Virus record (IMG/VR): IMGVR_UViG_3300036887_000068
Coordinates: 1-30,288 of that record
Length of the DNA: 30,288 nucleotides
Strand: one strand, 5' to 3'
Origin: a virus
Below, piece by piece: positions 6,143-30,015 of this stretch (within the stretch, counting starts at the first letter, position 1; every line of letters starts with the position of its first letter). The position numbers were made by a program, and so were the translations under genes. Below the pieces are notes generated by a model. It saw nothing but the letters and a program-made list of their open reading frames with translations, was not told the origin of the DNA and did not search any database.

Positions 6143-7140
6143 TGCTGAAATTACCCGCCTACCTCTCCCCTGCCAACCCAGGGCTTATGAACAAGCTCAT
6201 GGGGGGGCTCGGTGCTAGCCAGCCGCCGACGATAAGCCGGCGGAATAATCGCTTTACACTCGTCCAAGCGAACGGGGAGACCCATGGGGCTCTCTTGCCT
6301 AGCCTGACCCTCGACGTAGTGATTGTCGGCGGCAACGAGCATTCTTCTAAGGTCTACTATGAGAATGCTTATAACCCCGAGGAAGCCTCGGCGCCCGACT
6401 GCTGGTCGGACAATGGTGTGGGGCCGTCATCGCAAGCCGCAAAACCCCAGAATGATCTCTGCGCGACCTGCCCGCAGAACAAGTGGGGCTCGCGGGTATC
6501 TAAAGTGTCCGGGAAGCCGGTTCAGGCTTGCCAGACATACAAAAAGATTGCGTGCCTTGTCATGGGCGACCGGAGTGGAACTGTCTATTTGCTGGCCATC
6601 CCGCCGGCTTCTCTTGGCGCTTGGCGCGGCTATACCGCCCACCTCGCAGGGCAAAACGTCAGCGCCGAGCAGATCGTAACGCGCTTGATGTTTGCCGATA
6701 AAGAACTCGGCGTTCTCAAGTTTGAGCCGGTCGGTTTCATCGCTGAGGACTTCGTCGAACCGATCAAAAAGATTATTGAAAGTGGCGAGGCGGACACTGT
6801 GACCGGGGCGAATGACCAGCCAAGCGGTACAGCGCTACAGGCGCCGCGTGAAACAAGGCAAATCTCCGCGCAACCCGAGTACCCCGTACCCGAGAGCATC
6901 CCGCGACGGGCGCGCAGGACCGCGGCGCAAATGCAAGAGGCACAGTCTGTGCCTAATGCGGCGCCGGAGAAGGACAACGAGGTTGAGGCGGAGAAGGACG
7001 AGGAGGTTGAGGCGGAGATCACGCGCTACCGCGCGGAACTCGCGGCGAAAAAAGCAACCCCGGCTCCGGGCAAAACGCCGGTGCCGCGGGAGGATATTAG
7101 TAACATGCTCAACGCGGCCCTCAAATTGACGACTCGTTGA
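6139..7140 (+). CDS. Conserved phage protein with Cys motif; possible ssDNA-binding protein
   Basis: A 333-aa protein; ATG 6139 overlaps the upstream stop (ATGA) and a second ATG lies at 6142. The N-terminal ~230 residues look folded: RRNNRFTLVQANGETH, then TLDVVIVGGNEHSSKVYYE, a cysteine set DLCATCPQNKWGS...QACQTYKKIAC that could bind metal, and TVYLLAIPPASLGAWRGY. The tail is low-complexity, Pro/Ala/Glu-rich, with a 24-bp tandem duplication (6967-7014) giving EKDNEVEA/EKDEEVEA. An acidic flexible region in the last gene of a replication operon recalls phage ssDNA-binding proteins, but this is inference. Its 3' end overlaps the oppositely oriented ATP-grasp gene by 20 bp. Confidence 0.8.
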   Translation: MMLKLPAYLSPANPGLMNKLMGGLGASQPPTISRRNNRFTLVQANGETHGALLPSLTLDVVIVGGNEHSSKVYYENAYNPEEASAPDCWSDNGVGPSSQAAKPQNDLCATCPQNKWGSRVSKVSGKPVQACQTYKKIACLVMGDRSGTVYLLAIPPASLGAWRGYTAHLAGQNVSAEQIVTRLMFADKELGVLKFEPVGFIAEDFVEPIKKIIESGEADTVTGANDQPSGTALQAPRETRQISAQPEYPVPESIPRRARRTAAQMQEAQSVPNAAPEKDNEVEAEKDEEVEAEITRYRAELAAKKATPAPGKTPVPREDISNMLNAALKLTTR

Positions 7141-8446
7141 AGACCATCCCCGTAGCATATCCGTGAGCTTGGATGACGGGTAACTGCTTTGCTAGTCTAT
7201 CACCAATGTCGGTTCTGTACATAGGATTGTTCGGGACCGACAGCCTTTTCAGGCGCCGGTAGACTTTCTGCTTGGCGTCGTAGACCGTATTACCTACAGA
7301 TGACATGACAAGTACATAGTCGCCAGCCGTGACTGGTATCAGTCGTGTCTCAACCTTCCCCCCCACGTCGACCGGAGCTTCGCCTTGCTGCATTTCACAA
7401 AAATGAACTCGTGGCAGCAACCCGTCAGTAATTCCATAGACCGGGATTCCAACAACTTCTTTTCGCGTCAAGTGAGAATACGGGTAATCCGGGATAGAGA
7501 GGACGACGCCCATGGCTATTAGATCAAGCGTAAAGTTGCCCGCGTCGAGGCCTTGTGAAAGGTCATGCAACCATTGTACGCAGTCTCCGGTGTGGAGGGC
7601 CTGCTGTATATTGTAAGTCGGCCAGCCGGGCCGCATCGTGAATTCCAGCGGCCACGCGTGTCCTTGCTCGTCAAGGATACAATTAACGTCAATGTACCCG
7701 ACGTAACCGGCTTTCGCCAAAAGTTCACCCAGCGGCTCGAGCATTATGCGCGCGAGTTTTGACCGGCGCACGTAGCGTAGAACTGTCCCTTGCTCGCCGG
7801 TGGCTACTCCTTTATCACCGTCCATCAATTTCTTAAACTCGAAATTCTCACACCACCCCGTGTTGAACCCGCCGGGGCCAAACCATCCGCCGACCGCCAT
7901 TTCGACGCCCTCGACAAATTCTTGCAGAATGAACGGCGCCTTGATCTTGCCGAACTTCTGCCACCGCTGGAGCATGAAGACCATGTCAGCGGGGGTCTTT
8001 GCGCAGTAGCTCAGCGCTTTGTCGGCATCGCCGGAGGGCTTTGACACGAACCGCCGGCCTTCCTTTTTCACGTAAACTATGGCTTTATTGTAATCGTTGA
8101 ACTCCTTGCAAGGGGGCGTTTCTATACCGTGCTTGCGCAGTACCTCCATGCCGATACCGCGATCGAGTTCCCATAGCGCCGTTTCGGGCGAGGGGCCGAT
8201 GATCGGCACCCCTAGTGCACGCCACGTGTCAAGCTCGCGCAGGTATTTTGTATTGTCAGCGAGGAAAACCAGGTCCGGCCAATGCAGCCAAGGGTGAAAG
8301 TCCTCAATTATCTCGACGAGCCCGCGGCCGATTGCCTTGGTCTTCTCAGTCTGCCGGATGAACAGCTTGACCTTGTGGCCGTCGCGTTGCGCCCGCATGG
8401 CAAAGTCGAGAGCGGCGCCGGCCTGGTCAATGATCAGAAGTCTCAT
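7121..8446 (-). CDS. PurD-like ATP-grasp ligase (GARS-like)
   Basis: A 441-aa protein. It opens with a Rossmann-like segment MRLLIIDQAGAALDFAMRAQ, followed by VPIIGPSPETALWELDRGIG and KHGIETPP, matching the PurD linker and ATP-grasp entry. ATP-grasp features: FVSKPSG (K136), ILQEFVEGVEMAVGG (E176-E182), and GYIDVNCILDEQGHAWPLEFTMRPG with D253, N255, E268, R272. Known PurD joins glycine to phosphoribosylamine in purine synthesis; the real substrate here is unknown. It is last in the virion operon, overlapping the upstream gene by ATGA, and converges with the replication operon. The C-terminal ~160 residues are less PurD-like. Assignment to the superfamily is firm, function is not. Confidence 0.88.
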   Translation of the reverse strand: MRLLIIDQAGAALDFAMRAQRDGHKVKLFIRQTEKTKAIGRGLVEIIEDFHPWLHWPDLVFLADNTKYLRELDTWRALGVPIIGPSPETALWELDRGIGMEVLRKHGIETPPCKEFNDYNKAIVYVKKEGRRFVSKPSGDADKALSYCAKTPADMVFMLQRWQKFGKIKAPFILQEFVEGVEMAVGGWFGPGGFNTGWCENFEFKKLMDGDKGVATGEQGTVLRYVRRSKLARIMLEPLGELLAKAGYVGYIDVNCILDEQGHAWPLEFTMRPGWPTYNIQQALHTGDCVQWLHDLSQGLDAGNFTLDLIAMGVVLSIPDYPYSHLTRKEVVGIPVYGITDGLLPRVHFCEMQQGEAPVDVGGKVETRLIPVTAGDYVLVMSSVGNTVYDAKQKVYRRLKRLSVPNNPMYRTDIGDRLAKQLPVIQAHGYATGMVFNESSI

Positions 8447-14318: not shown

Positions 14319-14903
14319 TCACTTGATCTGTTCAATATAGCTGCCGTTGAGTGTCATTGTGCCGGAAGTCTCCGCCGTGCCTTCAATGAGCACCGTAATT
14401 GCCGAGGTATCGGTTACGGTCCACGCACCTTGCGCGGATGCCACGTTGGTTGTGCCGGTGGCGGCGTGCGCTTCAGCAGTCTGCGCGGAAGCGCCGGTCT
14501 TGTAAACGTAGAAGTCGCTCTGCCAAGTATTGCCTGACCCGGTGACAATCAGCGCCAATGTTGACCCGCCAAACGAGTAGGTCAGGGTTTTGGCGTTCGC
14601 ATCGGCCGAGTTGACGCCCCAGCAATGGATATGAATGCCCTGCCCGCCGCTTGCAAGGAGGCCGCCGGGAAGCGTGTAGGTCGCGAGGGGCTGGATGGTC
14701 GTCAACGTGGTCGCGGGCGTGCCGGGGGTTGAGCCGAGCAGGCCATCCACACCGGAGTTGATACCCAGGATGAGCTGGTTGAGCGTCGCCTGGATCTGAC
14801 TCGGGTCCTGCGGCCCGGCGCTCAGCGGCAGATTGGCGGCGAAAGTTGGAGCTGAAAAGCCCGATAATGCGACGGCAATCAATAATTTGATGAGACGATT
14901 CAT
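14319..14903 (-). CDS. Signal-peptide-bearing beta-rich protein (194 aa)
   Basis: From ATG 14903 the N-terminus is MNRLIKLLIAVALSGFSAPT then FAANLP: a textbook Sec signal with cleavage after A-x-A. The start at 14927 would add eight residues and bury the signal, so I prefer 14903. The mature part has a helix DPSQIQATLNQLILGINSG and then Thr/Ser/Gly-rich beta strands (GGSTLALIVTGSGNTWQSDF, TSGTMTLNGSYIEQIK), like phage fibre or jelly-roll domains. It follows the tail-collar gene, which also has a signal. Its role could be a virion protein, or an exported protein changing the cell surface; the sequence does not decide. Confidence 0.75.
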   Translation of the reverse strand: MNRLIKLLIAVALSGFSAPTFAANLPLSAGPQDPSQIQATLNQLILGINSGVDGLLGSTPGTPATTLTTIQPLATYTLPGGLLASGGQGIHIHCWGVNSADANAKTLTYSFGGSTLALIVTGSGNTWQSDFYVYKTGASAQTAEAHAATGTTNVASAQGAWTVTDTSAITVLIEGTAETSGTMTLNGSYIEQIK

Positions 14904-14962
14904 AAGGAAGCCCTTTGTTTGGTTCAAGATTTATACCCTGCTCTAGTTCACTAAGCAAGGAG

Positions 14963-15712
14963 TCAGTATTTGATCTCGCACTGTGCAGCCATTGTCGGCT
15001 GCACAGTGGGGAGCGGTGTGCCGGAGCCGCCGGAGGTGACGTTGGGAGATATCGTGCCCACAAGAGGGAGATTATATCCGACGCCGACGCCGGCTGAGTT
15101 TTGCCAAATAATTGTATACTCACCGCTGGAGTCGAAACTATGCCGGCCACCGTTAGTGCCGGAGGCAAGGAGCGAAAACGTCGTCGATGCGGGAAGACTG
15201 AAATTTGCCAGGTTGGCTTGCTGCACAACACTGCTTTGCACCCCTACCACCTCGCCGACACTATCCGCGCCGGTCAGCCTCCCCGTCGTTCCCTCCACGC
15301 TCGCCAAAACGCGCCCCTGCAAATCGGGGACATTGAACGTCGTCAAGCCATCCCCGGCTCCATAAGTCGTACCGATAGCGACGAACAGGTTGGCATAGGT
15401 CGTCCGACTCACCGCGGACCCGTCGCACGCTAAGAATCCCGGGTCGATACTCGTGGCCGCAGTCCAGGCATACTGCCCCGGTAAGATGAGGCTGCCCGAA
15501 GTTAGCGCCGACAGGCTTGCGATGTCGCTGTTCGCCCCGTTGTGCGCCGCGTATGTATTGACACAGCTTATAAGAGCGGCGAAGTTCGCGTTGACCTGTG
15601 TGCCGTCCGCCGTTACGCCGTTGATGAACGTAAAAGGCACGCTCGCGCAAATTGTCGCTGCCCCGACGACACTTGAATAAAACCAAAACAGGGCTGCTAA
15701 AAAAAGTCTCAT
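14963..15712 (-). CDS. Tail-collar domain protein with Sec signal peptide (249 aa)
   Basis: The N-terminus MRLFLAALFWFYSSVVGAAT is a signal peptide with likely cleavage after VGA. Then FINGVTADGTQVNANFAALI is the short oligomerisation-type segment common before collar domains. GFLACDGSAVSRTTYANLF, AIGTTYGAGDGLTTFNVPD and LQGRVLA form the phage tail-collar (microcystin-dependent-protein-like) core. A variable Ser/Gly-rich C-terminal half follows. Collar domains trimerise and bind receptors in tail fibres. The ATG overlaps the upstream tail gene stop (ATGA). The export signal is unusual for a part assembled in the cytoplasm. Confidence 0.85.
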   Translation of the reverse strand: MRLFLAALFWFYSSVVGAATICASVPFTFINGVTADGTQVNANFAALISCVNTYAAHNGANSDIASLSALTSGSLILPGQYAWTAATSIDPGFLACDGSAVSRTTYANLFVAIGTTYGAGDGLTTFNVPDLQGRVLASVEGTTGRLTGADSVGEVVGVQSSVVQQANLANFSLPASTTFSLLASGTNGGRHSFDSSGEYTIIWQNSAGVGVGYNLPLVGTISPNVTSGGSGTPLPTVQPTMAAQCEIKY

Positions 15713-19393: not shown

Positions 19394-20743
19394 CTACCCG
19401 AAGGTGCCGGAGAAGGCCGAAGTTGACTCGATCCTGCCGAAAAACAACTGGTTCAACAAAATTGTGCCGTACATAACCTTCCAGCCTACCACGCGCAACA
19501 TGTTGAGCACGTCCGACTTGTCAGCATCTTTCAGAAACGTATATTTGATGTCGTCGAGCATTATTTGCCCGTAAGCGCCGCGCCCGAAAACAAGGGTCGG
19601 GTAGACGGTGACACCGGCTGCCGGTGCAGCCGGCGGTACTTGCGAGGCACCAATACCTGTCAGGATGACAGTTTGCCCGCCCGCGAGCTGCGTCGCCTGC
19701 CCTTGCAAGGGGCCGGTCGTAGGACCAGCCGCGGTCGTCGCCAAGTTGTCGGGCGAGGTTGTAGTGCCGATGTAGACATTGAAGGTGAAGCCTGTCGGGG
19801 TCGAGGGCAAGGTGATCGCGATTGAGCCGTTCGGGCCGGCGACGCTCGTTGCGGCCGAGACTTGCGTGATCCAACTTTCATACTGGTTTTGCGTGTCAGA
19901 CGCGGTAACGATCGTATAATAGGTGGCGTTGGTCGCCAGTGCCCCGGCACTCCCCGCGACACCTTGAATCAGCGCGTTGCCGGTCCAGAACGGGACCATG
20001 TTTGACTCGCAGAACCGAATGCCGCCAAGCTCGCCAATTTCAGCATTGTATAGCTTGTTGATATCGCTGTAAGAAGAAGCCGTGACAAATGTCGAATTCT
20101 CCCTCACGTCTTGCACGACGAAGGGATGAACAATAGCGGTGTAGTGAGGAAGTCCTCGGGGGTCGGCCGAAGCCTTGGAGCCGCCGGACTCGGCCGCGAT
20201 CTTTTCGTTTGTCTGTTCGTCGCCCATGTACCTCGGCGCGCCGAGATTGGATAACTGCGCGTAAAGGCGATTGATCTCGTGGAGGTTGAGCACATCCCCG
20301 GCAACGAGGTTAGCACGGGCGCCGCGGGAGTTGACGTAGTTGATCTGTGTCCCGCCCATGAGGTTATTATATGTGTTGCGGTCTAAAGTTTCCGCCACGG
20401 CAAGCGCGCAAAGCTCTTTGGCGATACTGAACATAGGGTGCTTGATCGTCATCTCCGCTATATCCGAGATGGTGATTTTGTCACCCCACTGAAGCACGGT
20501 CGCCGTGACCATCGTAACGGACATTTCCTGACCGGCCGGCGGGACACCTTCTGAAAGTGGCGCGTAAGGCAGCGGTACGCGGTTCCACCGAGCGGCTTGG
20601 TAAACGACGCCGCGTCCTTTGGGGAGAGTCAAGGGGTCGCCGAACTGGAACGCTACTAAGCGCCGTCTGGCGAGAGGGAGCGTTTTCTGTGCAATATAGG
20701 ATTCGACATCGGCTTGAAATGCGCCCGAACTGTTAACCGGCAT
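19394..20743 (-). CDS. Major coat protein, N4 gp56-like, with inserted domain
   Basis: HK97-fold coat of the N4 gp56 type. Key blocks: PLSEGVPPAGQEMSVTMVTA at 62-81, VLQWGDKITISDIAEMTIKHP at 83-103, ETLDRNTYNNLMGGTQINY at 118-136, YTAIVHPFVVQDVRE at 201-215, AEIGELGGIRFCESN at 234-248, and YPTLVFGRGAYGQI at 381-394. Between residues ~262 and ~376 lies an extra Thr/Ser/Gly/Pro-rich beta-domain, absent from short family members. The ATG has TTAGGAG about 9 nt upstream, the strongest leader in this arm, as expected for the most abundant virion protein. It follows the scaffold gene. Confidence 0.92.
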   Translation of the reverse strand: MPVNSSGAFQADVESYIAQKTLPLARRRLVAFQFGDPLTLPKGRGVVYQAARWNRVPLPYAPLSEGVPPAGQEMSVTMVTATVLQWGDKITISDIAEMTIKHPMFSIAKELCALAVAETLDRNTYNNLMGGTQINYVNSRGARANLVAGDVLNLHEINRLYAQLSNLGAPRYMGDEQTNEKIAAESGGSKASADPRGLPHYTAIVHPFVVQDVRENSTFVTASSYSDINKLYNAEIGELGGIRFCESNMVPFWTGNALIQGVAGSAGALATNATYYTIVTASDTQNQYESWITQVSAATSVAGPNGSIAITLPSTPTGFTFNVYIGTTTSPDNLATTAAGPTTGPLQGQATQLAGGQTVILTGIGASQVPPAAPAAGVTVYPTLVFGRGAYGQIMLDDIKYTFLKDADKSDVLNMLRVVGWKVMYGTILLNQLFFGRIESTSAFSGTFG

Positions 20744-20781: not shown

Positions 20782-21564
20782 CTAAATTTCGACTCCATCG
20801 AGCCTGCGCTCGAGATCGTCGAGCGAATTTCCCCGGCCCGCTCGACCACGCGGCGCCGCATGATCACTTCGCCCGTCGCCTGCCTGCGTCCGTTGGCTCG
20901 CCACCTTCTTCCGGCCGGCGGCCTGTTGCGTCTTGATGTTCTTGGCGTTGTCCAAAACCTTTTGGCCAAGAACAAACTTCAGCACCGTCTCTCGCGAAAA
21001 GTCCCGACCCGCGCGCCTCTCGACGGCCAACAGGTCTTCAACTTCCTTCCCATACCGTTTGAAGCGCGGGTCATAGGACCCTTTCGCCTCGTATGCCGCT
21101 CTGTCGGCCTTATCCGCGGCCTCAAAGCGGTACATATTGATCTGACGCTCTTGAGCCTTCTGGGCTTTTCCAAGCTTGTAATCCAACCGCTCTTCTGCGC
21201 CCATGAGCGACAGTCTCGCGGCCTCTTGATCAGGTGTCTCTTCTTGCATCCGCGCCTGGTGTTGCTGGCGCTCCGTGCGAAGTTCCTGAATTTCTCGTTC
21301 TAACCGATCGACTTTCTCAGCAGCGGATTTAGCGGTTTCGCGCGCTTTCAGAACTGCGGAAGTCGCGCGGCTCCGTCGAGGTGGCTCTTCGCCACTTTCG
21401 TCTTCGGCCGTTAACCCTTCATCGGTTTCGGTGTCTTCGTCTTCTTGCCCACCGGCTTCGCGCCCGCTTTCGTCGTCGAGCTGTCCGGCATCTTCGCCTT
21501 CATCGCCATCTTCGATTTGGATGTCATCCGGTTCTTCATCAGGGTCTCGCGGTCCAATTGTCAC
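20782..21564 (-). CDS. Scaffolding protein (260 aa)
   Basis: The first ~60 residues are strongly acidic (DEEPDDIQIEDGDEGEDAGQ and onward). Next comes RRSRATSAVLKARETAKSAA and a long coiled coil (VDRLEREIQELRTERQQHQ). The C-terminus is basic, with a helix-turn end SLDDLERRLDGVEI. Acidic start, coiled-coil middle and basic C-terminal end is the classic phage scaffold pattern; the C-terminal helix binds coat. It lies directly before the coat gene. The start is GTG (21562-21564) with GGAG 8 nt upstream; a promoter-like sequence lies just before it. Confidence 0.85.
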   Translation of the reverse strand: MTIGPRDPDEEPDDIQIEDGDEGEDAGQLDDESGREAGGQEDEDTETDEGLTAEDESGEEPPRRSRATSAVLKARETAKSAAEKVDRLEREIQELRTERQQHQARMQEETPDQEAARLSLMGAEERLDYKLGKAQKAQERQINMYRFEAADKADRAAYEAKGSYDPRFKRYGKEVEDLLAVERRAGRDFSRETVLKFVLGQKVLDNAKNIKTQQAAGRKKVASQRTQAGDGRSDHAAPRGRAGRGNSLDDLERRLDGVEI

Positions 21565-21656: not shown

Positions 21657-21686
21657 AATTTACCGTAGAATAAAGGTATAAGTCAA
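21657..21686 (-). promoter_or_regulatory. Sigma-70-like promoter before scaffold/coat
   Basis: On the minus strand TTGACT (21681-21686) and TAAATT (21657-21662) are separated by 18 bp within the 118-bp gap upstream of the scaffold gene. The -35 box overlaps the stop of the preceding gene. The gap is one of the few in this tightly packed arm. This would boost scaffold and coat expression. Sequence pattern only. Confidence 0.5.
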
Positions 21687-21922
21687 GCTACCCCGTGCTC
21701 CAGGTGATCAAGCCTATGCTCGAATGCTCTAAGTCGTTCGTCTTGCCGAGCAAACTCAACCAGAATGTCAGTTTGCTTGCGCATCTCCGATTCCACAAAC
21801 GAAAGTCGCCGCGCTTGCGCCGACAAATCTGCCCTCGTCGATACAAATGCCCCGATCCCCCCGGCCAAAAACCCGAAGAGCGTAATCATTTGCCCGAGGT
21901 TTACGGATAAGTCGAAAGTCAT
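21683..21922 (-). CDS. One-TM coiled-coil membrane protein (79 aa)
   Basis: ATG 21922 overlaps the previous stop (ATGA); an earlier ATG at 21928 is possible. It has an N-terminal membrane helix (LGQMITLFGFLAGGIGAFVS) followed by a coiled coil (SFVESEMRKQTDILVEFARQ, RAFEHRLDHLEHG). One TM plus coiled coil is the layout of inner-membrane spanins and of small holin-like phage proteins. It lies close to a lipoprotein gene, which would be the expected partner. The role as i-spanin is inference. Confidence 0.75.
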   Translation of the reverse strand: MTFDLSVNLGQMITLFGFLAGGIGAFVSTRADLSAQARRLSFVESEMRKQTDILVEFARQDERLRAFEHRLDHLEHGVA

Positions 21923-22089
21923 TTGCATACCACTTTAAAGGTTCCTACGACCCAATCCCCATTGACCGGGTAGGCCCCGCGAACAGCCGGCAAATGGCAC
22001 GCCCTCGCCTCGACTTTGATCTGCTTTGCTACCGCCGGATGCCCCGGAGTGGCGAAAACAAACCACGCGACGACCAACGCGGAACTCAA
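21919..22089 (-). CDS. Small exported protein with signal peptide (56 aa)
   Basis: I place the start at TTG 22087-22089, which overlaps the lipoprotein TGA (TTGA) and has a GGGGGGAA leader. This start gives a short signal, MSSALVVAWFVFATPGHPAV then A-K. The mature part (KQIKVEARACHLPAVRGAYP) has two cysteines that could form a disulfide in the periplasm. A longer frame to 22179 exists but runs back through the lipoprotein gene. No family recognised; a role in lysis or superinfection exclusion would be speculation. Confidence 0.6.
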   Translation of the reverse strand: MSSALVVAWFVFATPGHPAVAKQIKVEARACHLPAVRGAYPVNGDWVVGTFKVVCK

Positions 22090-22436
22090 GGGCCGGTTCC
22101 CCCCGTCAACGAAGCCGTGCACGCCGCAAGCGATGCGGTGCCGCCCAGCGCATCGCAGAGGCCCGATGACGCGAGACATACGGTTTGGGAATCCTTGACT
22201 GCCGCCTGGCTGGTTGCAACCAAGGATGCGATCTGCGATTCGACGGCCGAGACACTGGCAACGGAGCAGGTGAAGCTGAGGGTAACCGATTTGATATTGG
22301 CCGCGGCTTGGGTTGCGGCCGGCGTCGAGAGAGCGGCCGAAACCGAGTTAATTCCCGACGTGACTTCGGCGCACGCCGCGAGGCCCGCACCTGTCAGAGC
22401 AAACATGGCGAGAATAAAAAGCGTGGAGGGTTTCAT
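22086..22436 (-). CDS. Phage lipoprotein (116 aa)
   Basis: From ATG 22436 the start is MKPSTLFILAMFALTGAGLAAC: basic n-region, hydrophobic core and a lipobox L-A-A-C. The frame runs on to 22469, but only 22436 gives a proper signal. The mature protein is Ala/Ser/Thr-rich with three more cysteines (SFTCSV, TVCLASSGLC, LAAC). Lipoproteins in a lysis region are candidate outer-membrane spanins, though this one is longer and not Pro-rich. It follows the 111-aa gene by 5 bp. Confidence 0.78.
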   Translation of the reverse strand: MKPSTLFILAMFALTGAGLAACAEVTSGINSVSAALSTPAATQAAANIKSVTLSFTCSVASVSAVESQIASLVATSQAAVKDSQTVCLASSGLCDALGGTASLAACTASLTGGTGP

Positions 22437-22441
22437 TTTGC

Positions 22442-22777
22442 TTAGCCTTTCCAATTGGTTGACGGCCACAAATCCGCGATGTTTGCATCGGGAGCCTGGC
22501 CGGTCAGGACCGCCCCGAACACCGGCCCGAGGAATTCGACCACTTCGTCAGCGAGTTCAAGATCATTTATAACCACCGCCTCCGGGGGAAGGAACAGACC
22601 GGCAATTTGTAGAATGATCATCACCGCGGATTCCCCGTTGCCAACACGCTGCTGGATCGGTTCCGACGACCACATATTTAGAAGACCATCCCAATTGAAT
22701 GATTTTGCACCCGCCAGAATTTTTGTGATTGTCGGTGCATCAGTTTGGATAGCGGCGAGATCAGATGCAAAACTCAT
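22442..22777 (-). CDS. Hypothetical protein (111 aa)
   Basis: The start overlaps the holin-candidate stop (ATGA at 22774-22777). The product begins MSFASDLAAIQTDAPTITKI, and has one moderately hydrophobic segment, GESAVMIILQIAGLFLPPEA, then an acidic helix VINDLELADEVVEFLGPVFG. It may associate with the membrane. No family recognised; its position within the envelope gene cluster is the only hint. Confidence 0.75.
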   Translation of the reverse strand: MSFASDLAAIQTDAPTITKILAGAKSFNWDGLLNMWSSEPIQQRVGNGESAVMIILQIAGLFLPPEAVVINDLELADEVVEFLGPVFGAVLTGQAPDANIADLWPSTNWKG

Positions 22778-23121
22778 TTCGGCACGACCTCGTAATCATT
22801 CGAGGAAACAATGTTTTTTTCTGCCGTCGTGGCCGCAATTAGGGGCGTTGTGACGATTATGGCCCCGGTCGCGGCAACGGCCCGGGCCTGGGCTTTGTGA
22901 CTTGCGGTCCATGTGCCGTACCACCCTAGCACAATCGCGGCCAGGGGCGCTACGCCAACAGTGATTTCCTGGACACCGTTAACAATATGGCCGAGCGATG
23001 TTTGAATTGTCGCAGCGTTATCTGTTGAAATGATGCCCCACCCCGCAGCGGCGGTTGCCGCGCCCGCTATGAAAGTTCCCACGTACCGGCTGATTGCAGC
23101 CACTTGCGCTGTTGTAATCAC
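22774..23121 (-). CDS. Holin candidate, two-TM membrane protein (115 aa)
   Basis: The start is GTG (23119-23121) with an AAAGGAAA leader. Two hydrophobic helices are visible: YVGTFIAGAATAAAGWGIIS and VGVAPLAAIVLGWYGTWTAS, with a possible third, ATGAIIVTTPLIAATTA. Size and layout fit small phage holins that make membrane lesions for lysis. The CHAP-like endolysin gene is ~350 bp upstream in the same operon. I recall a Pam3-gp28-type holin family with this layout, but cannot confirm it. Confidence 0.6.
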   Translation of the reverse strand: MITTAQVAAISRYVGTFIAGAATAAAGWGIISTDNAATIQTSLGHIVNGVQEITVGVAPLAAIVLGWYGTWTASHKAQARAVAATGAIIVTTPLIAATTAEKNIVSSNDYEVVPK

Positions 23122-23154
23122 TAGCGTTTCCTTTCAGGTGCTTCCGCGGCGGCC

Positions 23155-23262
23155 TCAATGAAACGGAATTGGCGGGATCTGCATCAGCTCCCGCAGCAGC
23201 CACGCGAGCGTAGCGACCACGCCCGCGACAAATACGCCGGCAATCAAGATCCACTTCAACAT
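23155..23262 (-). CDS. Tiny single-TM protein (35 aa)
   Basis: ATG 23262 lies 7 nt inside the upstream gene's end. It encodes MLKWILIAGVFVAGVVATLA followed by WLLRELMQIPPIPFH: a single membrane helix with a short Pro-rich tail. GAGCGG lies upstream as a weak ribosome site. It fills the gap between the 70-aa membrane protein and the holin candidate, and its composition is unlike random sequence. It could be an antiholin or small lysis regulator; this is inference. Confidence 0.6.
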   Translation of the reverse strand: MLKWILIAGVFVAGVVATLAWLLRELMQIPPIPFH

Positions 23263-23468
23263 CGTGGTGTACCGCTCATGTTGTGGATAATATAGTCAAG
23301 TTCCGTCATCCTCCCGACAGTGTCGAGAAACATACGCCGGCGCCGGCGCTTCGTCTCAACTCTAAGTCTAATTTCGGCACCGACCCCCCACACCAACGCG
23401 AACGGGAGGCCGGCCACACAAACGACGACGGCGAGTAATTCGAGGATAACCCGCGGGGCGCTGCGCAT
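23256..23468 (-). CDS. Small one-TM basic protein (70 aa)
   Basis: ATG 23468 shares its first base with the endolysin stop (TGATG). A TTG three bases earlier also overlaps that stop. The product has an N-terminal membrane helix (VILELLAVVVCVAGLPFALV) followed by a highly basic stretch ETKRRRRR and a short C-terminal part. This positive-inside layout fits an inner-membrane protein with a cytoplasmic C-terminus. Between endolysin and holin candidate, a lysis role is likely but unproven. Confidence 0.7.
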   Translation of the reverse strand: MRSAPRVILELLAVVVCVAGLPFALVWGVGAEIRLRVETKRRRRRMFLDTVGRMTELDYIIHNMSGTPRC

Positions 23469-23926
23469 CAACTTTTCGCCCCCGGCGCTCGCAAGAAGAA
23501 CTTGGTTGGCGTTTTACCACCTTTACCGCTGGCATACCGGAAATGAGGAACTGGCGCTTGGTTGTCGGCCACAACCATTTCGTCCTTACCCATAGCCTCG
23601 AGAACCAGGAATATGTGGTCTGTACCGTGGTTTATCACCCCCCCGCAGGTGCTTCCGACGTCGCCCTTTTCTTGCCTCCCGCAAGCGACCCGCATCCATC
23701 CTCGCCGCTCAAGAAGGACCCCGAGCGACAAGGCCAAGTAGGTGTCCGCCACATCGATGCCTGCGGCCTGGAGAAGGCACGAAAGCGTAATGGCACAGCC
23801 GTCCGTAGGATATCGCTCCCCGTCAAACCTTAAGAGCTTCTGCGCCGCTGCATGCTGGGCGGCAAGAAGCTCCTCAGGATTCGCCGCCGAAGCGACCAGG
23901 CCTTCGACGAATTGCTTATCGGCCAT
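23468..23926 (-). CDS. CHAP-like endolysin / cysteine peptidase (152 aa)
   Basis: From ATG 23926, which has AGGAGAAGG upstream. The pattern fits a CHAP/NlpC-type papain-like fold: C44 in YPTDGCAITLSCLLQAAG, H104 in HGTDHIFLVLEAMG, and D121/N122 in VVADNQAP as third residue. Before that, WMRVACGRQEKGDVGSTCGG gives the usual 'GD' loop. Such enzymes cut peptidoglycan peptides or amide bonds for host lysis. There is no signal peptide, so a holin is needed, and a candidate lies downstream. A capsid or tail-associated protease is an alternative. The Cys-His pair is clear, the exact bond cut is not. Confidence 0.72.
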   Translation of the reverse strand: MADKQFVEGLVASAANPEELLAAQHAAAQKLLRFDGERYPTDGCAITLSCLLQAAGIDVADTYLALSLGVLLERRGWMRVACGRQEKGDVGSTCGGVINHGTDHIFLVLEAMGKDEMVVADNQAPVPHFRYASGKGGKTPTKFFLRAPGAKS

Positions 23927-23937
23927 TCTGCCTTCTC

Positions 23938-24147
23938 CTATAGCTTGAGCATTATATCCATGAGCTGAATGCCCGGCCACGCGGACGCCGCTTCCGAGTA
24001 TATCGCCCCGCAGAAGCTAAGAAATTCGTCTTTGTCAGTGATTGTCACCCCCTCGGCCCCGAGCCAAGTGGCCTCGGTCACGGTGAGTTTCCCCGGGGTT
24101 CCTGAAACTGTCACATTTGACCCTGCTACTTTAACGAGCGTGCTCAT
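23938..24147 (-). CDS. Small beta-rich hypothetical protein (69 aa)
   Basis: The start overlaps the portal stop (ATGA at 24144-24147). N-terminal strands (LVKVAGSNVTVSGTPGKLTV) are followed by KDEFLSFCGAIYSEAASAWP and a hydrophobic end. The product looks like a small folded domain with no export signal. No family recognised. It lies 11 bp before the endolysin start. Confidence 0.7.
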   Translation of the reverse strand: MSTLVKVAGSNVTVSGTPGKLTVTEATWLGAEGVTITDKDEFLSFCGAIYSEAASAWPGIQLMDIMLKL

Positions 24148-26288
24148 CTCGGCATTCCTGTGTGGAGTTGGTCTTGGTGCATCGCACCGGGGGGTTGTTG
24201 CGCGTTCCTTACTTGCCCCGGCTGCGCACCGGGCTTAGGTTGTCCACCCCCCGGCCCCGGCCGGGGCTGGGGCTGCATAGCCTGTTGGTGCTCCATCTGC
24301 TGCTGTTGCTGCATTTGCATGTGGGCGGCAAGATGAACCTTTATAACCCCATGCGGGTCTCCCGTCATCTGCATTGCCTGCATGTGCGCCTGCATGTGTT
24401 TTTGAATGTCGTCCATCGCGTGCACCGGCACAAGCATACCTTGTCCGAGCAGCTGGTTCTCAGTCTGCGGATCGACACTCTGCTCCATCCGCATATCCCT
24501 AAACGTCAACGGCGCCAGACGCGGGCCGAACATGTTCTCGATCATCTGGGCGAGCACCGGGCCAAGGTCAAGCACGTAACCTTTATACATCTGCGGCGGG
24601 ACACCGCGAAGCACGTTGATCCCGGCAATCTGTTGTTGCATGTGCTGCGCGTTGCGCGCGGCCTCCACCCCGTACCAGCGGAATTGGTAGGCCCGCCCCA
24701 TGCTGACCGGCTCAATTTCCTGCATATTGGCGCGTAACCCCGTTTCACCATACTCGCGCACGAGCAAAGGCTTATCCCGATATTGGTGGTCAAGCTCCAG
24801 CATAAACCCGAGCATCGGCGAAAGGATTTCTTCCTCGATCACCGTCACGGCGTCCGCGGTCGTCAAAATATCAACTTGCTGCTCGTTGGCAATCTCCGCT
24901 TGCGAAGGCTTCTTTTTTGCTCCCTGGGCATTAGTAATCTGCGCGGGGTTAACCGAGAGCGTTTGAAAAATCATCGCCTGCGCGGTGGCGACGATCTCGA
25001 GCGCGTCCTTCCACAACGCGGGAAATTGCGCGAACTTCGTATCGCCGGGGCTTGTCTCCCATATGGCGGCGAGTGTCATTATCATACTGCCGACATTCGG
25101 GTTCTTCTCGGGGTCAGTAAGCACAATGGGCATCAGCGCATACGCCGCGCTGTCCATACCCTCGTTCGCCGCGTCGTTCGCCTGGTACTGGAGATCAGCT
25201 ACGCCGAGCCGGATCTTGCTTTGACCTTTGAACGCGCCCTCAACTTTTTCGACCGGCGCGGAGATAATATCAATTCGATCTGACCAATACGGATTGCGTT
25301 TACACCCGAGTATTTTGTCTTGCCCTCCGAAATATACTAAACAAAGTCGTCGTTCGCCATCGAGCGTAAGCATTGTCCAAGTTCGGTACACAAGAGCATA
25401 CTTACCGCGCCCGTCTCCTTTAATTCCTGCGGCATCCACCATCTCCTTCGGTTTGTCGATCGGTTTTGAGCGCCCCTCTTTACGCATCTCGTCAACCATC
25501 GCCTCGCCGGCTTTTTTCTCAATATGCTTTTCTTTGATCATCTTTTTGAGCTTGGCAGTGGTCCATCGGCAAAGGGTTGTGACCGAACCCCCCTCATGCA
25601 GAGCTTCCTCAAGACTATTTGACGTAGCCGGCAACACGAGAAGATCGCTATCGGCGATGACCAATACCCCCGGCCCCGAGTCCTTGATTACCTCTTCTTC
25701 GATATCCTCAATCTCGTCCTCTTCCTCCCCGGTACTAAGAGCAAGCCCCTCAATCTCCGGCGCCCGCTTAACCCGGTGAACCACATGGCGCGTGCGTGAC
25801 TGCCATGTAACCTGCACCGTGTACTGCCCTTCGATATCACCATTCTTCATCAACGCGGGAGCGACCTGCGTGCGCAGCTTTGCGCGCCGGACATAGTGCT
25901 CAAGCAGCGCCATCTCGGCCTGGGGAAGGTCTCCGTTCTCTGTTGTCACTTCAACATAGCGACCCGACTGCGGGAACATCTGGTTGACGAACCGCGTCTT
26001 GCGCGCGTTTACCGCGTTCAAGATTATGGGAATGAAAATTTTTGAGTTGCCCTGATAGAACTGCTTGTCACCAAGCACACAATTATAACAATCCCAATAG
26101 TCTAAATTGCCGTCGGAACGATCGGCCTGCTCGTCGAAGCCCTTCTCAATATCCTTATAGAGGTCGAGCAGAGCATCACGGATATCTTCCTTGCCCGACA
26201 ACTCTTCGTCGCGGTCAAGGTTTGTATTTTTGTCCCGCTCCCCGGCGCCGGGATCGAAACGAATTTTCTTGGCTGCCTTTGCACTCAT
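24144..26288 (-). CDS. Portal protein (714 aa)
   Basis: The frame is open to 26489, but the upstream part is repeat-derived and reads as Arg/Pro low complexity. ATG 26288 (MSAKAAKKIRFDPGAGERDK) is the credible start. Podovirus-type portal features: NSKIFIPIILNAVNARKTRF early, a middle wing with acidic insertion EEEDEIEDIEEEVI, then LGVADLQYQANDAANEGMDS and the stem-region helices after SPMLGFMLELDHQYRDK. The last ~100 residues are Met/Gln-rich (HMQMQQQQQMEHQQAM), like barrel-forming tails. It forms the dodecameric DNA gate of the head. It sits between terminase/fibre genes and scaffold/coat, the standard order. Confidence 0.88.
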   Translation of the reverse strand: MSAKAAKKIRFDPGAGERDKNTNLDRDEELSGKEDIRDALLDLYKDIEKGFDEQADRSDGNLDYWDCYNCVLGDKQFYQGNSKIFIPIILNAVNARKTRFVNQMFPQSGRYVEVTTENGDLPQAEMALLEHYVRRAKLRTQVAPALMKNGDIEGQYTVQVTWQSRTRHVVHRVKRAPEIEGLALSTGEEEDEIEDIEEEVIKDSGPGVLVIADSDLLVLPATSNSLEEALHEGGSVTTLCRWTTAKLKKMIKEKHIEKKAGEAMVDEMRKEGRSKPIDKPKEMVDAAGIKGDGRGKYALVYRTWTMLTLDGERRLCLVYFGGQDKILGCKRNPYWSDRIDIISAPVEKVEGAFKGQSKIRLGVADLQYQANDAANEGMDSAAYALMPIVLTDPEKNPNVGSMIMTLAAIWETSPGDTKFAQFPALWKDALEIVATAQAMIFQTLSVNPAQITNAQGAKKKPSQAEIANEQQVDILTTADAVTVIEEEILSPMLGFMLELDHQYRDKPLLVREYGETGLRANMQEIEPVSMGRAYQFRWYGVEAARNAQHMQQQIAGINVLRGVPPQMYKGYVLDLGPVLAQMIENMFGPRLAPLTFRDMRMEQSVDPQTENQLLGQGMLVPVHAMDDIQKHMQAHMQAMQMTGDPHGVIKVHLAAHMQMQQQQQMEHQQAMQPQPRPGPGGGQPKPGAQPGQVRNAQQPPGAMHQDQLHTGMPR

Positions 26289-26335
26289 TTCTTGCCAGAT
26301 CCAACAGGCGCTTTTGCCGCATCGAGATCTTTCAT
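26285..26335 (-). CDS. Possible 16-aa ORF or displaced C-terminus
   Basis: ATG 26335 gives MKDLDAAKAPVGSGKK and ends on an ATGA overlap with the portal. The same frame reads KVEKL just upstream, joining the end of the 33-bp repeat block. It could be the former C-terminus of the 124-aa protein, now shifted by repeat change, or a very small coupled peptide that helps start the portal. Weak ribosome site. Low confidence as a gene. Confidence 0.25.
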   Translation of the reverse strand: MKDLDAAKAPVGSGKK

Positions 26336-26343
26336 CAGCTTTT

Positions 26344-26718
26344 CTACTTTGCGGTCTGGAGTGTCGCCCCGGCGGCGGTCTGCGCGGTCTGGAGTGTCGC
26401 CCCGGCGGCGGTCTGCGCGGTCTGGAGTGTCGCCCCGGCGGCGGTCTGCGCGGTCTGGAGTGTCGCGTTTTCAGCCTGGAGTGTCGCAATCTGCGCCGTC
26501 AACGCCGTATTGATTCCGGCAATAAGGGTCGGCAGTGCAAGGCCCCCTGCCCCCGCCTGCTCCGGCGTCATCGCCTGGCTATAGGACAGCATAGGATCAC
26601 CGAAAACATCGGTTCCGGGAACCGCCACGATTACGTGATAATCCGGCGCTTGCGTACTACCTGGAGGCTGGCCGCGATAGAGAAATTCGTAGACATAGGC
26701 ATTGGACGGAAAGGTCAT
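26344..26718 (-). CDS. Small coiled-coil protein ending in 11-residue repeats (124 aa)
   Basis: The frame is open to 26862, but the upstream part overlaps the fibre gene and reads as Arg-rich low complexity. ATG 26718 (MTFPSNAYVYEFLYRGQPPG) with GGAAA about 8 nt upstream is credible. The N-terminal ~85 residues form a small domain. The rest is a coiled coil: ALTAQIATLQAENATLQ, then ATLQTAQTAAG-type units from a 33-bp tandem repeat, ending at TAG. It lies between fibre and portal; it may be a fibre chaperone or attachment part, by position only. Confidence 0.7.
   Translation of the reverse strand: MTFPSNAYVYEFLYRGQPPGSTQAPDYHVIVAVPGTDVFGDPMLSYSQAMTPEQAGAGGLALPTLIAGINTALTAQIATLQAENATLQTAQTAAGATLQTAQTAAGATLQTAQTAAGATLQTAK
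26353..26466. repeat. 33-bp tandem repeat in coding DNA
   Basis: Three perfect 33-bp copies start at 26353, 26386 and 26419, with a partial fourth to ~26466. On the minus strand they encode the 11-residue unit of the coiled-coil protein. None of the three minus-strand frames has a stop inside the repeat, which is why long shadow frames pass through it. Confidence 0.95.
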
Positions 26719-28011: not shown

Positions 28012-30015
28012 TCACCCTCGCGCGGAAATATAGCGACGCCCGTCCGGCGCCGTCTGCCAATTTATATTATTTTCATTTTGAACGCCAGCCCCCCGCAACA
28101 TAGCGGCGAACGCTTCGACTCCGGTCATAAGGACAGCGTAGGAATTCTCCTCGGGCTCCGAAGCGTCCACGAGCCGGGAGAACCCCCCCGCCAATGCGCG
28201 CAGCGTCCATGTTGCCCGGTTTGAGACCCTTACGGTGGCCATCCCGTGCACCCGGGCGCGAAGCATCCTACGCAATTCCTCCCGGCCTTGCAAGGGGGCG
28301 CCGCCGCGCGACAGGTCTACGGGGATGCGCTTGGCCGCCGGCCGCAGCCCTATCAGATCATAGAGACCCCAATGACTTTGCGGTGCAACACAGCGGAGTG
28401 TTTCACGTGAAACACGCGGGTCAGGGAGCTTACCATCCCCGACCCGCCGGAAGGGGGTCTCGACAGAGGCCTCTTGTATAATGTCGGCAAGCTCGGCGCC
28501 GGGGTCGCCTTCATGCAGCCAGTCGGCGAGAATCAAGAGCTGGCCATAGGAGAGCTGGCAAAGGACAGCCGTCGTCACTTTGCCGTCTGAGTTGACCGCC
28601 AGCCATAGAGGAGCCTTGGCGGGCCGCAGATCCTCGGCCATGTGCTCGACATTAAACTCTTCGTAGACCGGCACCCCGAGCTTCATCTTCAGAGCATAGG
28701 CTAAAGCGTTCGGTGCGTCTATATCCCCCGAAGGGAAGCCGAGCAGTTGCGCCCGCAACTCCGGTAGATCGCGCGCAAACTCAACCTCCCCGGCTCGGAA
28801 GTAGGGTTGAAGCCCGCGGATGAAGTCAAGCTTACCTCGTGGCGCATGTAGTGCTCGCATAGGCAGGACTTGCCCGCGTGCCTTCTGCTGCGCGCGGATA
28901 GGCTGCATGAGCCACTCGTTAAGGCCGGTTTCCTCAACGCCGATGGCAACAGGGTGATATTCCTCTTCGACCGCAAATATATCGTCAATAATCTCGCCGG
29001 GCATCAGCTTCTTGGCAAAAGCATCCCATATAACGAGCTTGCGGCCTACCCACGACCATACAACCTTGCCGGTCGTCGCGCTCTTTTTATTGGTCGTGCG
29101 GGCCGGGTCATACATCGCGTAGACCGCATGCCACGACCTAAGCTGAGGAACAACGCGTATCATCTCAGGGGTGAACACCTGCGTCGCCGGGTTGGTTGCC
29201 TGACAAAGATATTCCTGCACATAAATATCCGGCTTACCGAGATCATTTAGTTCTTCTCGTTTCTTCTCTACCCACTCGACCGAGTAACGCGAAGCCCATG
29301 TCGAGACAATACGCCCTGTACTATCTTTATGTATGACCGGATAGGTTTTCGAATACCACGACGCCGCTTTTGCAAGCGTGGGGGCGAGCGCCTCGGGGTG
29401 CAAGGGGGTCGCCCCCATGCGCTTGCGACCCCCCGGATCCATCGCCGGGACCACGGTAGACCCGTACCAAGTGCGGGTCTTGTCGCGCGCCTCGGGGGTC
29501 GCTACCGACACGTCATCCTCGAGGTCGTCCATAAACAACCAATCAGGCCGGTGCTCGAGATGCTTAACCCCGCGGAGGGACTGCCCCCGGCCGTAAGCTT
29601 GCAACATGACGCCGTTGGACAACGTGACCTTGGCTTCAGTCCATATAGCTCCGGGGCCGATCTCAAAGAGCAATTGCAGGACCTCATTAGTCTCTATCTC
29701 ATGCTTGATGGCGCGCAGGCGCTCGACAGCGCGCTGCTCACTCTCCCCCAGGATCAGAGCATTGTGGATGTGCTGGAAGCAGGCTTCGAGGGCGGTAGCC
29801 TCTTCCCCGATGGTTGACTTGGCACTGTCGCGGAAGGCCAGCGTGAGCACGTTGGGCCGGGTGCTGTGCCAGTCTTTAATAATCTCATGGTGAAAGGGGG
29901 GAGTCGGATGGGAGTGCCGGTGACCGAAGCACACCGCATGGGCGAGCACGTGGTCCTGGCCGATGGCCAAGAGAATCTCCGCGCGATCTGCTTTAGAAAA
30001 TGACGGGGCCACCAT
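28012..30015 (-). CDS. terL: Terminase large subunit with C-terminal extension (667 aa)
   Basis: Packaging motor. ATPase: Walker A-like FRDSAKST (R62-T68), Walker B WLFMDDLEDD (D163-D164), and MGATPLHPEAL as coupling segment. Nuclease: D303 in YAMYDPARTT, AIGVEETGLNEWL in the middle, and DIDAPNALAYALKMKLG closing the RNase H-like domain near residue 447. About 220 residues follow, beyond the usual end; they begin APLWLAVNSDGKVTTAVLCQ and look like another small alpha/beta domain. ATG 30015 has only a weak AGG leader. The small subunit is not visible and may lie beyond the right edge. A perfect parS sequence lies inside the extension. Confidence 0.93.
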   Translation of the reverse strand: MVAPSFSKADRAEILLAIGQDHVLAHAVCFGHRHSHPTPPFHHEIIKDWHSTRPNVLTLAFRDSAKSTIGEEATALEACFQHIHNALILGESEQRAVERLRAIKHEIETNEVLQLLFEIGPGAIWTEAKVTLSNGVMLQAYGRGQSLRGVKHLEHRPDWLFMDDLEDDVSVATPEARDKTRTWYGSTVVPAMDPGGRKRMGATPLHPEALAPTLAKAASWYSKTYPVIHKDSTGRIVSTWASRYSVEWVEKKREELNDLGKPDIYVQEYLCQATNPATQVFTPEMIRVVPQLRSWHAVYAMYDPARTTNKKSATTGKVVWSWVGRKLVIWDAFAKKLMPGEIIDDIFAVEEEYHPVAIGVEETGLNEWLMQPIRAQQKARGQVLPMRALHAPRGKLDFIRGLQPYFRAGEVEFARDLPELRAQLLGFPSGDIDAPNALAYALKMKLGVPVYEEFNVEHMAEDLRPAKAPLWLAVNSDGKVTTAVLCQLSYGQLLILADWLHEGDPGAELADIIQEASVETPFRRVGDGKLPDPRVSRETLRCVAPQSHWGLYDLIGLRPAAKRIPVDLSRGGAPLQGREELRRMLRARVHGMATVRVSNRATWTLRALAGGFSRLVDASEPEENSYAVLMTGVEAFAAMLRGAGVQNENNINWQTAPDGRRYISARG
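28399..28414. promoter_or_regulatory. Perfect parS-like palindrome (ParB binding site)
   Basis: TGTTTCACGTGAAACA is a complete 16-bp palindrome. It equals the bacterial chromosomal parS consensus TGTTNCACGTGAAACA known for ParB of most ParABS bacteria. It lies in the coding sequence of the terminase C-terminal extension, in codons for V-S-R-E-T. By chance a given 16-mer is expected in about 7 per million windows of this size. No parA or parB gene is present here, so host ParB would be the binder; binding is inferred. Confidence 0.8.

Follow-up and report, generated by a model that had tools for sequence, protein, structure and literature searches.

A predicted lysis module at a probable exchange site between the portal and scaffold genes of a metagenomic tailed-phage lineage

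Introduction

The lytic cassettes of enterococcal phages are shuffled, with endolysin and holin types exchanged between phages (PMC10630273). In prophage PBSX, xhlA is predicted to function with XhlB (PMC5589764), and a survey of spanins lists architectures that are "separated" (PMC6139136). Here, we analyze a tailed-phage sequence of 30,288 bases, IMG/VR record IMGVR_UViG_3300036887_000068, which is called the window below. Seven small open reading frames (ORFs) of the minus strand (21683-23468) lie between the gene of a 152-amino-acid (aa) enzyme and the scaffold gene, and we conclude, with a probability of roughly 0.8, that cluster and enzyme together form the lysis module of a tailed phage, located at an exchange site between portal and scaffold. 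Lysis is proposed because the enzyme has the predicted fold and the invariant residues of a peptidoglycan hydrolase. Module and head genes share one direction of transcription. The function is ordinary and the place is typical of the lineage. The predicted endolysin belongs to a family without a name, and the cassette is unusually exchangeable.

Results

The enzyme

We take the 152-aa protein to be an endolysin, as predicted from its fold and its context. No Pfam family matched it at an E value of ≤1, no PHROG or NCBIfam model matched, sequence searches of the PDB were empty, and no match was found among deposited phages. Relatives were found in three viral contigs (L071, L072, and L073, at 68%, 59%, and 60% identity, respectively) and, at 49% identity, in two Raoultella genomes, where the homolog makes up the C-terminal end of a 360-aa ORF whose N-terminal part was judged by eye. 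On a Neorhizobium galegae plasmid, a homolog is split across two frames and follows a part that is SGNH-like by eye. A search of 398 genomes of the phylum of Raoultella matched the seed genome alone, and the family looks rare.

AlphaFold2 returned a predicted local distance difference test score (pLDDT) of 39 for the single sequence and, with six aligned sequences, a pLDDT of 84.2 and a predicted template modeling score of 0.84. The top Foldseek match in the PDB was the endolysin Ly7917 (E value of 4.9e-3, probability of 1.00), and the top match among viral models (BFVD) was a CHAP protein (E value of 1.1e-3). VIA-align placed the phage endolysin Lys2972 first (Z of 11.2 over 122 residues), followed by NlpC/P60 hydrolases and type VI amidases (Z of 9 to 10). 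Moreover, Cys45, His105, Asp122, and Asn123, numbered on a 153-residue query (23468-23929), are invariant in all six aligned sequences. The model therefore predicts a papain-like NlpC/P60-CHAP fold, in which the conserved Cys, the His, and a polar third residue of that class appear to be present. The predicted fold alone would also fit a type VI effector and does not separate endolysin from effector.

Endolysins at the portal-scaffold site of relatives

The capsid has relatives at 56 loci in IMG/VR (numbered with L). Three of these, L002 to L004, are identical to the window in the studied region, which leaves 53 nonidentical loci, some of them fragments that end short of the portal-scaffold interval. 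Portal, interval, scaffold, and capsid were present together at 33 loci, which became 26 sets after collapse at 97% capsid identity (L018, L047 to L049, and L057 were collapsed, and L002 to L004 were counted once with the window). Thirteen of the 26 intervals measure 1.45 to 7.8 kb, one measures 759 nucleotides (nt), and twelve are shorter than 500 nt.

Ten of the 13 long intervals hold an endolysin. Eight are recognized by Pfam, namely glucosaminidase (L008), GH19 (L009 and L015), Phage_lysozyme (L014), Phage_lysozyme2 (L020), Hydrolase_2 (L025), GH108 (L034), and Muramidase (L046), one by homology (L031, 48% identical to the enzyme of L015), and that of the window by fold. Incomplete intervals add GH108 (L006), Phage_lysozyme2 (L012), and M15_4 (L038), and across all loci the site is occupied by eight Pfam families and the unnamed family of the window. 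The endolysin and lysis module proposed by an earlier, sequence-only reading of this DNA are supported by the enzyme fold and by the endolysins from different families that relatives carry at this position. That reading had also called the placement uncommon, which does not hold for this lineage, as 13 of the 26 nonredundant complete intervals hold at least 1.4 kb at this site. Among the papers listed in the literature searches, none dealt with a portal-scaffold lysis module.

The 13 shorter intervals gave no blastp match to 14 endolysin queries, and Pfam coverage of their few small proteins extended to one from L023 and to the coil-like membrane proteins described below. Four short-interval records were read further (L023, L024, L036, and L056). 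In three of them, a peptidoglycan enzyme lies outside the interval (Phage_lysozyme in L074 and L077 and Tlde1/YkuD in L080), and the fourth (L024, via L075) has a holin-like protein elsewhere, with no enzyme recognized. At L037, another short interval, a partial GH108 match lies past the tail genes.

Gene content and enzyme identity both vary at the site. The sequence-only reading had counted more genes than a holin-endolysin-spanin set needs, which is true of the window, and the long-interval relatives have 3 to 10 called genes there. One example, L015/L018, is a set of four: an endolysin, a protein with two transmembrane (TM) segments, a lipoprotein, and a one-TM protein with a coil-like part. 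The enzyme of L071, 68% identical to that of the window, is accompanied by a capsid only 49% identical, and no enzyme match was found at the 53 loci with 52 to 86% identical capsids. These identities fit a portal-scaffold gap that serves as an exchange site, with entire, unrelated lysis sets replacing one another by horizontal transfer.

Layout and reality of the small genes

The dense cluster of small envelope-targeted genes described by the sequence-only reading was upheld. Counted from the enzyme gene, five of seven junctions overlap (enzyme/70-aa by 1 nt, 70-aa/35-aa by 7 nt, 115-aa/111-aa by 4 nt, lipoprotein/exported ORF by 4 nt if the preferred TTG start is used, and exported ORF/81-aa by 10 nt). 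Gaps of 33 nt and 5 nt separate the 35-aa from the 115-aa gene and the 111-aa gene from the lipoprotein gene, and 118 nt separate the 81-aa gene from the scaffold gene. A strong hydrophobic segment (KD19 of ≥1.6) occurs in six of the seven ORFs versus 3 of the 27 other genes of the window (Fisher P = 0.0004), and, as a control, in 18 of 106 opposite-strand ORFs of 35 to 130 aa. All seven ORFs of the earlier gene list exist, and two entries needed correction: the 111-aa protein also has a strong hydrophobic segment, and for the exported ORF a 56-aa reading from TTG 22089 is preferable to an 86-aa reading from ATG 22179. The TTG lies across the stop of the lipoprotein gene, just after G-rich sequence, whereas a start at the ATG would make the ORF share 94 nt with the lipoprotein gene. 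Coordinates are given in Table 1.

Table 1. Genes of the predicted lysis module and its boundaries in the window
Feature	Coordinates	Strand	Basis or remark
Scaffold	20782..21564	-	Named from its position and its homologs in relatives; bounds the module downstream
81-aa one-TM protein	21683..21928	-	N-terminal TM; heptad-like C-terminal part; phrog_736 (unknown function), E 0.0038
56-aa candidate exported protein, starting at TTG	21919..22089	-	Two Cys in mature part; weak gene call
116-aa lipoprotein, predicted	22086..22436	-	Lipobox LAAC at Cys22; four more Cys
111-aa protein	22442..22777	-	One strong hydrophobic segment, KD19 2.09, residues 52-70
115-aa holin candidate, GTG start	22774..23121	-	Two or three weak TM segments; position after endolysin
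35-aa one-TM peptide	23155..23262	-	KD19 2.56; coding score 0.20
70-aa one-TM protein, very basic tail	23256..23468	-	KD19 2.62; more positive charge after TM; weak coding score
152-aa predicted endolysin, NlpC/P60-CHAP fold, without signal peptide	23468..23926	-	Fold model and invariant residues
69-aa soluble protein	23938..24147	-	4-nt overlap with portal end; coding score 0.18 per codon
Portal	24144..26489	-	Named by position after TerL and homology to same position in relatives; upstream boundary of module

Codon usage supports the 115-aa and 35-aa genes (0.20 per codon each), the 111-aa gene (0.22), and the 81-aa gene (0.08) and, weakly, the lipoprotein gene (0.05). The 70-aa gene and the longer version of the exported ORF score about 0, and because of these scores they are the least certain genes of the cluster. 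It is possible, though doubtful, that both are chance ORFs and that the true module is the enzyme and five small genes, as both also lack homologs in relatives, and as the hydropathy threshold was passed by some control ORFs. The junctions of the two ORFs are tight, however (1, 7, 4, and 10 nt), and the KD19 of the 70-aa protein is high. We confirm that the cluster of small envelope-type ORFs is, for the most part, real and that it is lineage specific. The interpretation given by the sequence-only reading held in part. Absence of the small genes from relatives, which that reading had named as grounds against it, was observed for the individual genes, as none of the seven ORFs was found by tblastn at the 53 nonidentical loci (some of them fragments that miss the interval); conservation can thus no longer be claimed, and the lysis-module reading stands. 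Nor did any deposited phage match the 111-aa protein, the 115-aa protein, or the lipoprotein. The analysis thus establishes the gene layout, the predicted fold of the enzyme with its conserved residues, and the presence of other endolysins at the site. Because the small genes have no detectable homologs in other relatives, every role except that of the enzyme, and all timing, is inferred.

The holin candidate, the lipoprotein, and the exported ORF

The 115-aa protein is a small protein with multiple predicted TM segments beside the endolysin, as expected of a holin. Two of its segments lie near the hydropathy threshold (KD19 of 1.58 and 1.63), and no named holin family matched in Pfam, PHROG, or NCBIfam, where the only match was phrog_27584 (unknown function; E value of 0.0096). 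The 111-aa protein matched no family in the same libraries. A single holin family was rejected: a hidden Markov model (HMM) of the two-TM proteins of L014, L020, and L013 found those of L008 and of the record of L024 (L075) and did not find that of the window.

The 116-aa protein has the lipobox signal and short length of an o-spanin, as predicted from its sequence. Cys-bearing lipoproteins recur at L015/L018, L038, and L073 and in the record of L024 (L075:12885-13196), and a Cys...Cys-x3-GG pattern, seen by eye, is common to those of the window, L038, L073, and L015. An HMM of the last three missed the window lipoprotein at an E value of 0.5, a single lipoprotein family was rejected, and homology is therefore not claimed. 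Small two-TM proteins after the endolysin and one-TM proteins with a heptad-like part likewise recur in relatives as types rather than as demonstrated homologs. The genes after the 60% identical enzyme at L073 encode a coil whose TM is C-terminal, a lipoprotein that bears Cys, and a small protein resembling a holin, with a weak PHROG holin match (E value of 0.059).

The lysis cassettes of relatives contain further candidates. L009:8230-8715 and L034:7823-8362 encode a second, YiiX-like candidate enzyme (fold judged by eye); the two are 32% identical to each other and have no Pfam match at the limits used. Secreted proteins with similar Cys spacing adjoin a holin-like gene at L009:7533-8222, L006:1271-1696, and L034:7054-7560, and that of L009 is apparently fused to it (all by eye).

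The coil-like membrane protein

The 81-aa protein belongs to a loose set of TM-coil proteins. Twenty-two candidates were selected, 21 of which have a TM segment (weak in L008); L011 has none and was excluded from the topology count. Candidates and neighbors were selected by eye, and the counts of 18 of 21 and 9 of 26 given below are not blind. Lys and Arg are commoner on the soluble-domain side in 18 of the 21, with the reverse in L010 and L080 and a tie in L013, and the window protein has none before and three after the TM. Because of this excess, and by the positive-inside rule only, the coil part is predicted to be cytoplasmic, whether the TM comes first or last. "Coiled coil" is a weak label, because only 6 of the 22 candidates had a heptad signal that exceeded shuffles at a level of 0.02 or better (0.055 for the window protein). 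A single coil family was also rejected, as the 21 proteins share 13% mean column identity and no Pfam or PHROG model is common to more than 2 of them.

One explanation is that the lipoprotein and the TM-coil protein are a classical two-component spanin pair, with the order reversed and the genes separated. A Cys22 lipobox and a one-TM coil-like partner do occur within one cassette, L015/L018 contain exactly an endolysin, a two-TM protein, a lipoprotein, and a TM-coil protein, and among the 21 TM-coil proteins, two match the Rz-like spanin family phrog_89 (best E value of 0.002) and two match phrog_739 (best E value of 0.0032). Those matches belong to other proteins, however, and the window protein matched no Rz-like spanin PHROG, with phrog_736 alone at an E value of ≤0.05. 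Moreover, an i-spanin requires a periplasmic coil, whereas charge predicts a cytoplasmic one here, several coils carry a C-terminal TM (L008, L024, L029, L031, and L073), and the interval of L038, with its lipoprotein, contains no coil gene. We consider a classical pair unlikely.

In 9 of the 26 nonredundant complete intervals, the gene immediately preceding the scaffold gene encodes a TM-coil protein, and L022, L023, L024, and L028 keep one beside the scaffold with no endolysin in the interval. Together with the predicted cytoplasmic location of the long part, this arrangement might suggest that the gene serves head assembly instead of lysis, by anchoring or recruiting scaffold at the membrane. 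Against assembly, L037 and L053 have a similar protein close to GH108 endolysins, past the tail fibre and away from the scaffold, no such gene precedes the scaffold at L030, L035, L036, L037, L044, and L056, and the proteins are too divergent to show one family. An assembly role thus seems quite improbable, and a role in lysis is favored. There is a slim chance that the cytoplasm-facing coil senses scaffold or procapsid and ties head assembly to holin timing and that the lysis module docks at this junction for that reason.

The lineage and other observations

The window encodes a TerL (28012-30015; phrog_38, E value of 6e-55), a capsid protein (19394-20743; phrog_1357, E value of 6e-35), and, in its left part, a family A DNA polymerase, an SNF2-type helicase, and a PD-(D/E)XK nuclease. 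Neither portal nor scaffold matched a Pfam or PHROG model (best PHROG E value for the scaffold, 0.51), and homologs occur at 33 and 45 of the 56 loci, respectively. Among 50,697 deposited phage records, the portal had zero matches and the capsid matched 31, with ≤31% identity among the 15 listed. A blastn search of the studied region against deposited phages gave nothing useful. By these searches, the lineage appears to be known only from metagenomes, without a close match among the deposited records. In the distant deposited relative ctUh1700, a single 91-aa soluble ORF separates a portal-like from a scaffold-like gene, and the record of another, cto1L10, stops before the interval.

Sec-type signal peptides start tail-collar or fibre-like structural proteins in the window (14963-15712 and 14319-14927, minus strand), the first of which matches Pfam Collar (E value of 2.5e-18). 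The same kind of protein occurs in L005, L006, L008, L009, L023, L024, L025, L034, L036, L038, and others, and a rough rule, with some false calls, found Sec signals in 35 of 302 nonredundant called proteins of ≥180 aa in L005 to L057 (18 loci). By eye, the mature parts of several share a pair of Cys spaced by about 30 residues. Signal peptides on virion-type proteins are perhaps more surprising than the lysis cassette.

A PurD-like ATP-grasp gene (7121-8446, minus strand; GARS_A, E value of 6.5e-9) follows an internal virion protein gene, with look-alikes in a similar place, by eye, at L074:11152-12474, L075:505-1836, L077:8777-10111, and L080:9780-11060. Contig IMGVR_UViG_3300037238_000146 (L081 and L082), identical to the window in the studied region, carries outside the window a tandem array of paralogous ORFs of about 130 to 200 aa with a common N-terminal part and variable Ala/Arg/Tyr-rich repeats.

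Discussion

How the module would act can be outlined. Lacking a signal peptide, the enzyme would collect in the cytoplasm. The inner membrane may be opened at a set time by the 115-aa protein, perhaps together with the 70-, 35-, and 111-aa membrane proteins, after which the enzyme would cut peptide bonds of peptidoglycan. At the outer membrane, the lipoprotein may act alone or together with the exported 56-aa protein, and the 81-aa protein, whose long part is probably cytoplasmic, may help or time the holin.

Several results weigh against a lysis module. In Pfam, PHROG, and NCBIfam, sequence searches linked none of the module's genes to a named lysis family, Foldseek gave nothing below an E value of 1e-3 for the enzyme model in the PDB, and the match of the catalytic residues reflects conservation and not active-site geometry. 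The holin, lipoprotein, and coil of the window have no demonstrable homolog in the sets of relatives, and a promoter and terminator scan gave nothing marking the module that exceeded shuffles. Finally, no endolysin was recognized in the long intervals of L013 and L040, and the enzyme of L027 was judged by eye alone.

Lysis-control factors may be among the extra genes. The sequence-only reading had also raised surface exclusion, and nothing was found to support it. Small lipoproteins of some phages, such as T5 Llp, block receptors, and three proteins of the window (the 70-aa protein, the exported candidate, and the lipoprotein) have no assigned role, such that some of the small genes might act in superinfection or surface exclusion. 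All of them run in the direction of the structural genes and adjoin the endolysin, however, and lipoproteins recur next to endolysins at L015, L038, and L073; we give exclusion very little credence.

The lysis module, as we favor it, adds a peptidoglycan-hydrolase family that has no name in the sequence libraries searched. Moreover, a single site in one phage lineage takes up endolysins of at least nine unrelated types. Each type comes with small membrane genes of its own, and together they provide a natural set for testing which small genes accompany which enzyme.

The enzyme resembles the NlpC/P60-CHAP endolysins (Lys2972, Ly7917, PlyGRCS, and the CHAP domains of LysGH15 and LysK), with which it shares its predicted fold over 110 to 130 residues as well as an invariant Cys that starts a helix, a His on a strand, and Asp/Asn after it. 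Unlike them, it has no second, wall-binding domain, and it is ≤19% identical in the VIA-align rows. The type VI amidase effectors Tae3 and Tse1 are of the same fold class (Z of 9.1 and 9.0, respectively), but the window enzyme sits in a phage late region. As in the two-component spanins Rz/Rz1, a lipoprotein and a one-TM coil-like protein occur in a single cassette; in contrast to Rz/Rz1, the predicted topology of the coil is opposite, the order is reversed, and the coil is not always alongside the lipoprotein. The 81-aa protein may also be likened to XhlA of PBSX, a membrane protein that works with holin and endolysin. XhlA consists of a coil and a C-terminal TM, whereas the TM of the 81-aa protein is N-terminal and no Pfam XhlA match was found (only PF17408, E value of 0.049, and PF24073, E value of 0.16, were listed). 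Finally, the exchange of endolysin and holin types between phages is alike in the enterococcal phages (PMC10630273) and differs here in that nine endolysin types occur at one portal-scaffold site in one capsid lineage.

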